From positions 1-64,000 of the forward strand of contig LUZY01000014.1 of the NCBI GenBank assembly GCA_001603805.1: DNA of 64,000 bases, written 5' to 3'. This DNA comes from Deferribacterales bacterium Deferri_01. GTDB lineage: Bacteria > Chrysiogenota > Deferribacteres > Deferribacterales > Geovibrionaceae. Numbering within the stretch: position 1 is the first letter of the stretch; every line of letters begins with the position of its first letter. The notes below the pieces were generated by a model. The model searched no databases. It had not been told where the DNA came from and saw only the letters and a program-made list of their open reading frames with translations. The position numbers and the translations under genes are program-made. Below, piece after piece: positions 13,235 through 23,407 of the stretch.

Positions 13235-13857
13235 TTCCACTCCCCGAAGTTTTTCAGCAGCTTAAGACCTGTGGTCTGTGATTTTTCAGGGTGAAACTGC
13301 GTGGCAAATACATTATCTCTCGCAGCAGCGGCGGTGAAGTTCACTCCGTATTCGCACTCTGCGGCAACAACTGCCCTGTCTTCCGACTGCACATAATACG
13401 AATGCACAAAGTAAACCATGTCACCGTCATTTATCCCTTTCAGTACAGGGTGATCCTTCTGCGTTATATTAAGGCTGTTCCAGCCCATATGGGGAATTTT
13501 CATCCCTTTTTTAACTATTTCATCGGGAAACTTTTTTACTGAGCCCCTGAATATTCCGAGCCCGTTATGCTCACCGAACTCAAAGCTCTTTTCAAAAAGC
13601 ATCTGCATGCCCACGCATATGCCGAAAAACGGCTTTCCGGAGCTTATAACATCAAGCACTGTTTCTTTAAGCTCTGCCTTTTCAAGTCCGCCGACACAGT
13701 CTCCGAATGCTCCCACACCGGGGAGAACAACCTTGTGGGCTGATTTAATAACAGAGGCATCGGATGTAACCACAGCATCATACCCGAGGCTTTCAAATGC
13801 TTTTTGTACACTGCGGAGGTTGCCCGCTTCGTAATCTATAACTGCTATCTTACTCAC
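13228..13857 (-). CDS. hisH: HisH, glutaminase subunit of imidazole-glycerol-phosphate synthase
   Basis: Supplies ammonia to HisF. It is a class I glutamine amidotransferase of 209 residues, with DYEAGNLRSV at the start, the oxyanion strand VVLPGVGAFGD, the nucleophile elbow FGICVGMQMLFE (Cys) and the His/Glu dyad ATQFHPEKSQ. Start is GTG and overlaps the hisB stop by 8 bases. Its partner HisF must be encoded elsewhere. Confidence 0.96.
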   Translation of the reverse strand: MSKIAVIDYEAGNLRSVQKAFESLGYDAVVTSDASVIKSAHKVVLPGVGAFGDCVGGLEKAELKETVLDVISSGKPFFGICVGMQMLFEKSFEFGEHNGLGIFRGSVKKFPDEIVKKGMKIPHMGWNSLNITQKDHPVLKGINDGDMVYFVHSYYVQSEDRAVVAAECEYGVNFTAAAARDNVFATQFHPEKSQTTGLKLLKNFGEWKC

Positions 13858-14443
13858 TCAATGTTCCCTTAGTGGACATTATCCTGTCTGACTCTATGAC
13901 AACCGCATCTTTTATTGATCTCGCAACCGCTTTAAAGATTCCTTCAATGATATGGTGGGTATTACGCCCGAATCTTTTTATGATGTGCAGGTTCACCGCT
14001 GATCTGTCGGCAAATGCCTTGAAAAACTCTTCCACAAGCTCAGTCTCAAAATTGCCCACACGTACCGCCTGAATATCCGCAGCATAGTTCAGGTATGTTC
14101 TTCCGCTGAAGTCTATTGCGCATTCTATAAGCGTTTCATCCATGGGCAGGAGAAAAAAGCCGTATCGTCTGATTCCTCTTTTATCCCCCAGAGCCTTCTT
14201 AAAAGCGTCTCCGAGACAGATCCCGATGTCCTCAACAGTATGGTGGTCGTCCACAATTGTGTCACCCTTGGCTATGACTTCAAGATCGAAGCCGCCGTGT
14301 CGGGCGAATAGTTCAAGCATGTGGTTAAGAAAACCCACACCGGTGGTTATTTTGCCCTCACCCGAACCGTCTATGTTCAGTTTGAGATAAATATCTGTTT
14401 CGTTAGTTTTTCTTGTAATTTCCGCGGTGCGGCTGCGGTTCAT
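13850..14443 (-). CDS. hisB: Imidazoleglycerol-phosphate dehydratase
   Basis: Manganese enzyme that dehydrates imidazoleglycerol phosphate. The 197-residue monofunctional form has both metal-binding repeats: GFLNHMLELFARHGGFDL with DDHHTVEDIG, and LHIIKRFGRNTHHIIEGIFKA. GGGAGG lies about ten bases upstream of the ATG. It is first in the hisB-hisH-hisA-pgpA-cinA-recA run. Confidence 0.97.
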   Translation of the reverse strand: MNRSRTAEITRKTNETDIYLKLNIDGSGEGKITTGVGFLNHMLELFARHGGFDLEVIAKGDTIVDDHHTVEDIGICLGDAFKKALGDKRGIRRYGFFLLPMDETLIECAIDFSGRTYLNYAADIQAVRVGNFETELVEEFFKAFADRSAVNLHIIKRFGRNTHHIIEGIFKAVARSIKDAVVIESDRIMSTKGTLSE

Positions 14444-14643: not shown

Positions 14644-15534
14644 ATGAAATACTTTAAAAATCTCCAAAAAAGCTACGAAGTTACAGAAGATGACCTGCGC
14701 AATATTGCCTCTCTGAAAGACATAATGGAAAATCACAAGGAAGATTTCATAAGGGATGTTTTTGAAAATTTTTCCAAAAAGTTCCGAATGCCCGATAATA
14801 TATACCCTGTTGTGCTTGCCAAGCACAGGGAGTTCCTTGCCACATGGTATGACAGATTTTTTGAAGCAAAGATTAACAACGCATACCTCGCCTACCTTGA
14901 AAAATTCGGTAATCTTCAGATAAAGTATGAAATAGATTATGAATGGATAAACTCCATGATGAGTTTCATACGCCTCTGGATGCACGAAAAGATTTTTCAG
15001 AGTCTGGATGATGACATACACAGAAAAAATATTCTGTTAAGCGTTCATAAGCTTATGGATATTAATTTTGATGCCATAAACTATGCTTTCTGCGAAAACA
15101 AAATCAAAGAATATACATCTATATTCAGTGTAAGGAACTTTATAGTCTCCGTTTCTGAGAAGTTCTCATTTCTCATGCACACCTTTATGGTGGGTATGCT
15201 TATTCTGATGACTGTCGCTGCGGCTGTCCTGTTCGGAATCGAGATAATGCACCTTCTGGAAGAAAATGCTGACAAAATAATTATAACCGCCCTCGGCTCA
15301 CTCCTTATAATCTGGGTTCTTGTGGAGCTTCTCCATACAGAAGTTCAGATGCTGAAAGGGGGTAAGTTCAAGATAAGCATATTCATCGGCGTGGCGCTCA
15401 TTGCATTCATCCGTGACTTGCTTATCATCACTCTGAAACACGAAACATCAAACCCGATGATATACGGCTTTGTTCTGCTGTCCATTGCGGTGCTTGGTGT
15501 GATATACTGGCTGATTGTAAAAACGGAAAAATAA
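14644..15534 (+). CDS. Globin-sensor domain fused to PsiE-type membrane domain
   Basis: Residues 1-150 match the globin-coupled-sensor (protoglobin) fold: KHREFLATWYDRFF near 60-73 and the F-helix block FGNLQIKYEIDYEWI at 88-102. At the position of the proximal haem histidine (IHLRIGL in typical sensors) this protein has Gln92. Residues 165-296 carry four hydrophobic segments and PsiE-like sequence (VLFGIEIMHLL, ELLHTEVQMLKG, IRDLLIITLKH). A membrane-bound, possibly haem-free sensor is inferred; Geobacter GsGCS is a known globin sensor with a membrane transmitter. CGGAG precedes the ATG. secA follows 15 bases later. Confidence 0.75.
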   Translation: MKYFKNLQKSYEVTEDDLRNIASLKDIMENHKEDFIRDVFENFSKKFRMPDNIYPVVLAKHREFLATWYDRFFEAKINNAYLAYLEKFGNLQIKYEIDYEWINSMMSFIRLWMHEKIFQSLDDDIHRKNILLSVHKLMDINFDAINYAFCENKIKEYTSIFSVRNFIVSVSEKFSFLMHTFMVGMLILMTVAAAVLFGIEIMHLLEENADKIIITALGSLLIIWVLVELLHTEVQMLKGGKFKISIFIGVALIAFIRDLLIITLKHETSNPMIYGFVLLSIAVLGVIYWLIVKTEK

Positions 15535-19693: not shown

Positions 19694-21010
19694 TTAAAAA
19701 AAGGTGACTTTCTCAACTCTGTTGCGCCCTCTGCTTTTTGCCATGTAAAGCGCATCATCAGCCGTTTTTATAAGAAGATCCTTTGACTGGAGCAGAACGT
19801 ACTCCGTTACACCAAAGCTGCATGTAACCCTGCCCACATGTGAAAACTGCTGGCGCTCTATCTTGCCTCTTATTTTATCAGCAAGCTGACAGCCGCCGTT
19901 TATATCCGTCTCAGGAGCAAGGATTATGAATTCCTCACCGCCATAACGGGCATAAGTGTCAACCACACGGACATTTTGATGCACAAGCTGGGCTATCTCT
20001 TTTATTATGCTGTCGCCAACCTGCCTTCCGTAGCGCTCGTTGATTTCGCTGAAACCGTCAATATCAAAAAGGATAATACTCAAAGGACGGGTGTATCTCT
20101 GCACTCTGTAAAGCTCACGGTCAAGCTCTTCCAGAAACTTCTGTCTGTTTACTATACCTGTCAGTGGGTCTACCATCGCAGGGGTTTCACCTATCACTAC
20201 AGAGCTTTCAAGTGTGGATATATCAACCATTGATACAAATATAGAGTTTTCTTCCTCAACATTGTTGATACGAACCAGAAAGTTTTTTGCTTCGCTTTTC
20301 AGCTTACCTGCCCCCTGCATTTTGAAGACAGCTTCATCAAGTTTTCCCGCAACAGCTTTCTGAAGCCAGCTTTTGAGATCAGCACCGCAATACCCGCTGC
20401 CGTCTTTCAGGATATTAACCCTCTCCAGCACTGACGCTTCCTTGCCAAGTTCTGCCATATCATCATAGCCGATATAACGGAGGAAGGATCTGTTCATATA
20501 ATGAATCTGTTCGAGGTCGGTGATCAGGTAAAATTCAGATGAGTTTTCCATAACAAGCCTGAGCAGCCTGTCCTTTTTTGCTTTTTCCTTTTGCTGTATG
20601 ATGTTCAGGGCAACTTCGCTTAAAAGGCTTCTGAGTTTTTTGATATCCACAGGTTTTTTAATGTATTTCATTGCGCCTATATCTATGGAACCAACAAGAT
20701 ACTTCTCATCATCATAACCGGTTGTTATGATTATAGGTACATCTGCGTTCTCTTTCCTGATCTCTTCCGCCATTTCAAGACCGTTCATCAGCGGCATCTG
20801 TATGTCGGTGATTATTATATCCGGGTTTTCCGACTTAAATATCTCAAGTCCTTCTATACCGTCTGAGGCACTGTAGACTGAGCCGAAATTTTTACTGAGA
20901 AAACCAGAGAGCTTGTCTCTGGCGTCAGACTCGTCCTCAACACAAAGAATCGTGATTTCCTTCATTGCTTCAGGGAAATCTTCCGTCCACTTGTTCATTT
21001 CAACCTTCAT
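19694..21010 (-). CDS. Response regulator with PAS and GGDEF domains (diguanylate cyclase)
   Basis: Makes cyclic di-GMP under phosphorylation control. The 438 residues contain an N-terminal receiver (phospho-acceptor in DIIITDIQMPLMNG, Lys in KYIKKPVD), a PAS domain (about 145-260), and a GGDEF domain with intact active site RYGGEEFIIL. An inhibitory I-site RVVD lies five residues before GGEEF, so product feedback is expected. It is 42 bases downstream of a hybrid histidine kinase, a likely partner. Confidence 0.93.
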   Translation of the reverse strand: MKVEMNKWTEDFPEAMKEITILCVEDESDARDKLSGFLSKNFGSVYSASDGIEGLEIFKSENPDIIITDIQMPLMNGLEMAEEIRKENADVPIIITTGYDDEKYLVGSIDIGAMKYIKKPVDIKKLRSLLSEVALNIIQQKEKAKKDRLLRLVMENSSEFYLITDLEQIHYMNRSFLRYIGYDDMAELGKEASVLERVNILKDGSGYCGADLKSWLQKAVAGKLDEAVFKMQGAGKLKSEAKNFLVRINNVEEENSIFVSMVDISTLESSVVIGETPAMVDPLTGIVNRQKFLEELDRELYRVQRYTRPLSIILFDIDGFSEINERYGRQVGDSIIKEIAQLVHQNVRVVDTYARYGGEEFIILAPETDINGGCQLADKIRGKIERQQFSHVGRVTCSFGVTEYVLLQSKDLLIKTADDALYMAKSRGRNRVEKVTFF

Positions 21011-21052
21011 TCATCCATAATAATATTTATTAATGTTATACACAGGGTAATT

Positions 21053-23299
21053 TTACCCCTTCCTGCCTGCTTTTTCGTTTACTGATTCTGCTATCATCTT
21101 CAGCAGAGCGTGTGCGAAGACAGGTTTTTTTAAGATAATCTTACCTGTAATGTCTATACCCTTTGCCTTGAGTGACTCATCATCATATCCCGTCATATAG
21201 ATTATCGGCAGATTTTTGTATTTCTCAAGAAGGGCTTCCTCCGCCATCATACTCCCGGAATCTGAAAGTACCATATCTATAACAGCCAGTGATACTTCTC
21301 CCAAATGTTCAAGTTTGTTATGAAGAGAAGGGAAACCGTCAAATGAGGCTGCCCTGTAACCGAATTCCCCAAGCATTGTTTCAATGCCTTCTCTCACACC
21401 CGGGTCATCATCCACAACTACCACGCAGCCGTCCAGTTTTACCAGACTGTCTGATGTTGCAGCAGCACATGATATTTCATCTATATCTACAAGAGGAAAT
21501 TCCAGTGTAAAAACTGTGCCATGACCCAAAACGCTGTCACAGGCTATTTTTCCCCCATGAGAGTCCATGAGGTCCTTTACTATGGCAAGCCCAAGCCCTG
21601 TCCCCTTTCCTTCGCTTTTAGTGGTAAAAAACGGCTTGAAAATATTAGCCAGAACATCAGCCGGCATCCCTGTGCCTGTATCCCCTATACGAATTATCAC
21701 GCTCTTTCCTGAGGCGCTTTTTGAGGTTGATACGGTTAACAGCCCGCCATCAGGCATGGCATCCTTTGCATTGTTTGCAAGGTTAAGAAGGATCTGCTCA
21801 ATCTGTGATTCAATAGCTTTTATCCTTACCCCGTCGCATCCTGTTTCCAGATCTATTACTACGTCTTCCGGAAAAACCAGCGAAATTATATCCGAAACCT
21901 TTCTTACAATGCGGTCGACCTCTATGATTCTGAATTCCTGCTCTCTCTTTCTGCTGTACCCCAGAAGACCCTGTGTGAGTGACCTGCCCGATTCTGCAAG
22001 CTCCACCAGCTTATCCGCAAGGTAGCTTAGATCTTTTCTGTCTTTTAGCTTGCGGCTTATCACACTGGCAAACCCGCCCACTGCGGTAAGCACATTGTTA
22101 AAGTCATGAGCTATGCCGCCGGCAAGTTCGCCCAGTGTCTCCATCTTCTGAGCGTGTATGAGCTGCATTTTCATCTCATTGGCTATGGTGGCGTCTTCAT
22201 CAAAGAAAGCAAGATTTGTTATCTCACCTTTTGAGTTTCTTATGGGCGAAACAAATGATATAACCTCCACATGTCCGCCCCCTTTTGTGTTGCTCTTGGT
22301 GCGCCCTGCCCACCTCCTTCCGGAGAGGACCGTTGACCATATGCGGTCATATTCAGCGCTGTCTTCAATAACATTCTTAATAACTTTTATATTGCTGCCT
22401 ATGATGTCTTTTCCGCTGAAGCCTGTCTGCTTCTCAAGCTTCGGGTTGGCATAAGTGACTGTTCCGTCCCTCTCTGTTACAAATATGCCGGACGTGCTGT
22501 ACTCAACCACCTGCATCATACGCATAGCGTTTTCATGGGTGCGTATCTTTTCGCTTAAATCCTCAAGGCGGGCATAAAACATACTTTCGTTTTTTCTGTA
22601 AACAAGCTGCACGGTTGCTTCACTCTGGTGAACTTCACCGTCTTTTGAGACAAGCTCAGTGAACAGAACTATTTTGTCCTGCTCCCCTTCGGCAACGCCT
22701 GCAAGCCTTTCACGCAGTATTTCAGCACTGATATTGCGGACAAGATCAACCGGCGTCATGTTCCGCAGCTCGCCGAAGCTGTACCCTGTTTTTTCTATAA
22801 CAGCACGGTTTACATATCTGAACTTAAGGCTTTTTTCATCCATAAGAAAGATCAGATCCCTGCTTTCCTCTATTATATCAATGAGCAGTTCTTTTTCGTA
22901 ATCATCGCCGCTTTCCTTAACTCCTTTCTTTCTGGCCAGAGTATTGCGCACTGATTCGATGAGTCCTGCTATATCATCTTTGGTGCGGAAGTCGCTCGCA
23001 CCACGGCGGATGCACTCCACAGCGCCCCGCACATCAGAATATGCAGAGAACACAAATACCGGAACATTCCGTCCGGATGCGTTTATTATATCAAGTATTT
23101 CAAAGACATCTGTTTTGCTGAGATATTCCTCGGACACCACTAAATCCCAGTGGCGCCCGGTGAGAAGTTCGTGAAATTCATCTGTTGTTGTGGCAAGGGC
23201 ATGGATCTCTATTGTGAAATGTTTCTTAAGTGCTTCGAGAACTTTGTTTTTTTCTACTCCGGAATCTTCAACAAAAAGTACGCTGATAGAAGACAACAT
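21053..23299 (-). CDS. Hybrid sensor histidine kinase (REC-PAS-PAS-HisKA-HATPase-REC)
   Basis: About 748 residues. An N-terminal receiver-like domain (VLFVEDSG) has Glu where the phospho-acceptor Asp normally sits ([10 protein letters not shown]). Two PAS domains follow, then the H-box [15 protein letters not shown], an ATPase domain with N box [14 protein letters not shown] and G boxes ([23 protein letters not shown]), and a C-terminal receiver with intact Asp (VIDMVLSD) and Lys. No membrane segment: a cytoplasmic sensor. Start chosen at MLSSISVLF, after GGTGTGG; an ATG nine codons earlier is possible. Confidence 0.92.
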
Positions 23300-23407
23300 A
23301 ACCACACCGCAAGTAGGGATTACCATATACTGCGAGGAAAACCGACGCAGAATAACCAGCGGCTGTTAGTTTTCGGCGAAGTCCTTCTCAAAAGGATTCT
23401 GCTCTTC

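Follow-up and report, generated by a model that had tools for sequence, protein, structure and literature searches.

A globin-PsiE membrane protein encoded beside secA in Deferribacterales carries glutamine at the position of the haem-ligating histidine

In a stretch of 64,000 nucleotides of the Deferribacterales bacterium Deferri_01 (contig LUZY01000014.1, referred to here as the window), the gene directly upstream of secA encodes a sensor globin fused to a PsiE membrane domain, and glutamine occupies the place of the proximal haem histidine. This protein is probably a membrane sensor of the type represented by GsGCS of Geobacter sulfurreducens, with a cytoplasmic sensor globin and a four-helix PsiE domain, in which the globin has lost the ability to bind haem. 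Judged from the homologues collected, the fusion is a widespread architecture of known type, and loss of the histidine is recurrent and, among the genomes sampled, largely confined to Deferribacterales.

The open reading frame originally predicted at this locus was correct in strand and coordinates (Table 1). It had been described as a protoglobin-like N-terminus joined to a four-helix PsiE-like membrane half and encoded next to secA, and all of this was recovered: the two halves scored 54 bits against the Pfam family Protoglobin (cut-off 25) and 73.9 bits against PsiE (gathering cut-off 23.9), four helices were predicted in the PsiE part, and secA begins immediately downstream. When the protein was compared with PDB sequences using phmmer, one convincing match was obtained, the globin of GsGCS (2w31, E 3e-9). 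The alignment is gap-free from helix E to helix G and pairs Leu65 with His66 (HisE11), His61 with Leu62 (E7) and Gln92 with His93 (HisF8); since the F helix is aligned without gaps, Gln92 stands opposite the proximal ligand of GsGCS. An AlphaFold2 model of the full protein was built on 24 orthologues (pLDDT 78). Its residues 1-151 superimposed on residues 1-152 of the 2w31 chain with a Z score of 20.1 and an rmsd of 2.0 A over 149 residues, and this nearly end-to-end match leaves little room for a register shift. Below GsGCS, the structure search ranked AfGcHK, HemAT (Z 18.3) and other globin-coupled sensors, followed by pXO2-61 (15.1), pXO1-118 (14.5) and RsbR (13.1).

Two further histidines were considered as proximal ligands and ruled out. 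His61 aligns with Leu62 of GsGCS, four residues before HisE11, which is position E7 on the distal E helix, while His31 lies just before the helix formed by residues 32-46 and is not conserved. The claim that Gln92 sits in the position of the haem histidine was thus upheld by both the alignment and the structural comparison with GsGCS. At the positions compared, the window protein has Phe40, His61, Leu65 and Gln92, and Trp68 is kept. In the same model helix H is predicted to run on into TM1, the linker between them having a pLDDT of 58-76 with lower confidence around residues 150-170.

Table 1. Features of the globin-PsiE gene and its neighbours, numbered from the first nucleotide of the window.
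Feature	Position	Strand	Basis or occurrence
Globin-PsiE fusion protein, 296 aa plus stop codon	14644..15534	+	Orthologues in 41 of the 60 relatives searched
Protoglobin / sensor globin domain, residues 4-149	14653..15090	+	Pfam PF11563, E 2.5e-14; Z 20.1 to GsGCS 2w31
Phe40 (ttt), opposite Tyr40 of GsGCS	14761..14763	+	Alignment and residue survey
His61 (cac), topological E7, sole remaining His of the distal helix and candidate haem ligand	14824..14826	+	Alignment and survey
Leu65 (ctt), E11, equivalent to the distal haem ligand His66 of GsGCS	14836..14838	+	Alignment
Gln92 (cag), F8, in place of the proximal haem His	14917..14919	+	Ungapped against His93 of GsGCS
His114 of the invariant HE, helix G	14983..14985	+	26/26 secA-linked orthologues; 11/132 outside the order
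His135 of the invariant HK..D, helix H	15046..15048	+	26/26 secA-linked orthologues; 0/39 in the first outgroup set
Continuous predicted helix formed by helix H, linker and TM1, residues 124-207	15013..15264	+	AlphaFold2 model
PsiE membrane domain, residues 178-295, four predicted helices	15175..15528	+	PF06146, E 1.7e-20; models
secA, 15 nt 3' of the globin-PsiE stop codon	15550..18153	+	Adjacent in 26/26 orthologues from seven families
hisB, divergent neighbour (hisBHA cluster)	13850..14443	-	Conserved in most of the 26 loci

From its sequence, the protein is a globin-coupled sensor by fold and architecture only, and we do not file it as a haem-binding one: an N-terminal globin of the protoglobin/HemAT type (PF11563) is followed by a C-terminal output domain (PF06146), and F8 is glutamine. 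GsGCS is the closest known system in sequence as well as in structure; its orthologues carry the same C-terminal PsiE, and Pfam and the models agree on a four-helix PsiE membrane transmitter in the window protein. However, the haem of GsGCS is held by HisF8 and HisE11 (PMC4476040), and these bis-His ligands are replaced by Gln and Leu in the window protein. The combination of a globin fold with a lost F8 histidine, found in both the alignment and the structure search, is that of the non-haem sensor globins. RsbR of Bacillus subtilis, which has Ala74 at F8 and binds no haem (PMC4476040), shares the sensor globin fold without the F8 histidine, but it has a cytoplasmic STAS output domain, within the stressosome, and lost its histidine separately. 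The globin folds of pXO2-61 and pXO1-118 of B. anthracis, classed as non-haem (PMC11617747), are likewise similar, although both proteins consist of a single domain without a membrane part; a non-haem globin domain of B. anthracis was crystallised with a fatty acid (PMC4976288). The window protein is most likely a membrane globin sensor that, like RsbR, does without haem.

A search of genome contigs with the single sequence alone yielded one relative only, and profile searches gathered 132 distinct full-length homologues from other phyla. These share the globin-PsiE fusion, and Glu228 and Arg257 in the PsiE half and Trp68 in the globin are conserved in all of them. Orthologues of GsGCS from Desulfuromonadales, 60-67% identical to it in the globin, also carry a C-terminal PsiE domain; going by these orthologues, as G. 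sulfurreducens itself was absent from the sequences identified, GsGCS very likely has PsiE as its membrane transmitter. Since the fusion is common to GsGCS orthologues and other phyla, it is not in itself the novelty. The F8 histidine was present in 130 of the 132 homologues outside the order. The two exceptions, with Gln in L133 (G513:C212:1472-2341) and Phe in L171 (G923:C165:708-1601), are separate from the losses in Deferribacterales. The distal Tyr, which faces position 40 and which we take to be B10, was not universal in this set (71/132), and HisE11 was mainly a feature of Desulfuromonadales (19/21 there). In the column of window residue 100, where helix G begins, 120 of the 132 have a second His, and Deferribacterales have Glu or Asp.

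Within Deferribacterales, by contrast, His92 was kept in only 8 of the 26 secA-linked orthologues, which come from seven families. It was replaced by Gln in the window genus, by Leu, Ile or Val in g3 and g4, by Asn in f3, by Phe in f7 and by Tyr in L025; family f6 mostly has Gln, in an alignment that is unsure at this position because of a one-residue insertion nearby. The SecA tree contains two fully supported sister pairs that differ at the ligand position: L004 has His and the window genus Gln, and L026 has His and L025 Tyr. The other losses fall on backbone branches with support of 68-91. With reversals allowed, the SecA tree required at minimum 4 changes between His and not-His and the protein tree 5, and the number of losses becomes five or six if a lost His is never regained. 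Two separate losses of His92 are therefore firmly supported, and four to six are likely. Protoglobin scores were 85-105 bits outside the order, 62 bits in the His92 keeper L004, 54 in the window protein, 32 in L007 and 20 in L010, and were below detection in f6.

Other ligand candidates on the distal side bear on whether haem might still be bound. His61 was retained in 7 of the 8 keepers of His92 versus 4 of the 18 losers, including all three members of the window genus. It could hold haem alone, as the distal His can in other globins, and in six-coordinate globins an E7 histidine is known to act as a ligand (PMC4476040). The ancestral pair of the clade may have been HisE7 with HisF8. A protein in which His61 binds haem from the distal side, with Gln92 as a weak or absent sixth ligand, would be an unusually ligated redox or gas sensor. 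We consider this unlikely, since in sister groups that share the synteny neither histidine is present (Asn61 with Leu or Val92, Tyr61 with Asn92, Met or Tyr61 with Phe92), and haem is therefore dispensable for the gene in those groups. In addition, the window protein lacks the distal Tyr, having Phe40 instead, and this Tyr was kept in 7 of the 8 keepers versus 2 of the 18 losers. The direction of a linked loss of His92 with Tyr40 or His61 agrees in nearly all pairings, for which we claim no significance because only 2 independent pairs sit on well-supported branches.

Lack of haem in these organisms was ruled out as a trivial cause: a ferrochelatase was found in all 45 genomes checked, and haem is therefore available. 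A hydrophobic pocket may survive in the window protein, which retains Trp68, Leu65 and a fold of globin size, and this counts against the haem-free reading. With F8 replaced in relatives of the same synteny, several of which lack an E-helix His, and with the distal Tyr mostly gone, the original description as a haem-free or unusually ligated membrane sensor is the best-supported one.

The conservation of the globin differs along its length. Mean identity was 0.28 in helix E and 0.34 in helix F among losers versus 0.41 and 0.46 among keepers, while helices G and H, which form the dimer face of globin-coupled sensors, were equally conserved in both (0.53). Of the eleven globin residues that are invariant in the 26 secA-linked sequences, ten lie in helices G and H, namely Arg110, His114, Glu115, Phe118, Arg127, Lys128, Leu131, His135, Lys136 and Asp139. 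Arg110, Lys136 and Asp139 are family-wide, and His114, Phe118 and His135 characterise the secA-linked clade; His135 is not among the commonest residues at its column in the 132 homologues outside the order. A simple compensation of the loss of His92 by His114 and His135 was not supported, because keepers of His92 have both too. A protein that retained its fold, dimer face and membrane link and gave up haem fits this evidence.

We propose that the globin would dimerize through helices G and H, the sole part of it still strongly conserved in the order, and that a signal other than a haem-bound gas would shift helix H. This signal might be a protein partner or a small hydrophobic ligand, the latter modelled on the non-haem sensor globins of Bacillus. 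Because helix H runs on into TM1, its shift would move the PsiE bundle. The conservation of G and H could also reflect a protein contact unrelated to sensing, which would count against a haem-free sensor. In a more elaborate scenario, which we regard as improbable, the sensing site of the secA-linked clade had moved from the haem pocket to the G/H dimer face, with His114-Glu115 and His135-Asp139 invariant before the ligand was lost. This site, contacting a metal, a lipid or a protein, would have made the F8 histidine dispensable, and several lineages would then have lost haem independently while the gene stayed tied to secA.

It is very doubtful that the globin is a decaying remnant serving as a passive anchor, with the PsiE half alone functional. 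TM2 and TM3 of PsiE are indeed far better conserved (identity 0.7-0.85) than the globin (0.28-0.6), and the f6 globin is no longer recognised by Pfam. However, the globin is full-length in every orthologue, its eleven invariant residues hold across seven families, and dN/dS lies well below 0.2, with values for the globin half among losers of 0.025-0.072, taken only from pairs with unsaturated dS after several saturated pairs had been set aside. By these sequence measures the globin frame is intact and under purifying selection, and the intact frames, together with the low dN/dS, rule out a pseudogene.

The gene immediately precedes secA in 26 genomes from seven families, with hisBHA mostly divergent on its other side. 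As read directly from the locus sequences, its stop codon and the secA start share nucleotides (ATGA or TAATG) in f3, f5, f7 and f8, do so too or are spaced by 1 nt in f2, and are 12-81 nt apart in f1. This suggests co-translation with secA, by which the level of the protein would be set together with the secretion machinery. From gene order and spacing we infer a functional link to secA; that the protein acts directly in secretion is no more than a guess. The close spacing would also suit a gene whose main effect is on secA expression, with translation of the upstream frame controlling that of SecA as with secM in E. coli. This is highly improbable, as the conserved C-terminal stretch is common to homologues not beside secA and hence shows no position-specific arrest motif; moreover, f4 carries secA but lacks the gene, and in f6 the gene lies at another locus.

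No globin-PsiE copy was found in any f4 genome searched, and linkage to secA was not found in the wider-phylum loci L052-L070. The diverged f6 copy, away from secA and with a globin that Pfam does not recognise (L036 1998-2900; L028 1492-2385), lies beside a glycosyltransferase/phosphorylase-like gene and a thioesterase-like gene, so named from sequence alone. In L010 (1501-2385), L014, L018 and L022-L026 the ATGA overlap is accompanied by basic C-terminal tails, for instance EQQGTRRSIK and EKNDNKRRNK, and the window protein is without such a tail. At 19694-23326 on the reverse strand, the window also appears to encode, adjacent to each other, a response regulator with a GGDEF-like C-terminus and a large PAS/histidine-kinase-like hybrid.

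The PsiE part was modelled alone on 58 sequences and gave four helices (pLDDT 76.5). A fold search of this model against solved structures returned no match with E under 1; nothing was therefore learned about the output, nor can the fold be called new. The family is named after a phosphate-starvation-inducible membrane protein of E. coli, which presumably lacks a globin, unlike the window protein, and is no guide to the output because its biochemical function is not known. Our literature search found no paper combining 'PsiE' and 'protoglobin', and no account of recurrent histidine loss in a secA-coupled membrane globin sensor. A haem-free sensor globin is of a known kind, with RsbR of Bacillus and a few others as examples, and its recurrent origin by ligand loss in a secA-coupled membrane sensor is new as far as the literature was searched. 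One syntenic gene across an order, with keepers and losers of the ligand in sister genera, provides matched pairs for studying how a haem sensor takes on a different role. PsiE is a membrane family that is widespread and of unknown function, and these proteins open a way to approach it, because outside the order nearly all members of the family are fused to a globin with the haem ligand intact.
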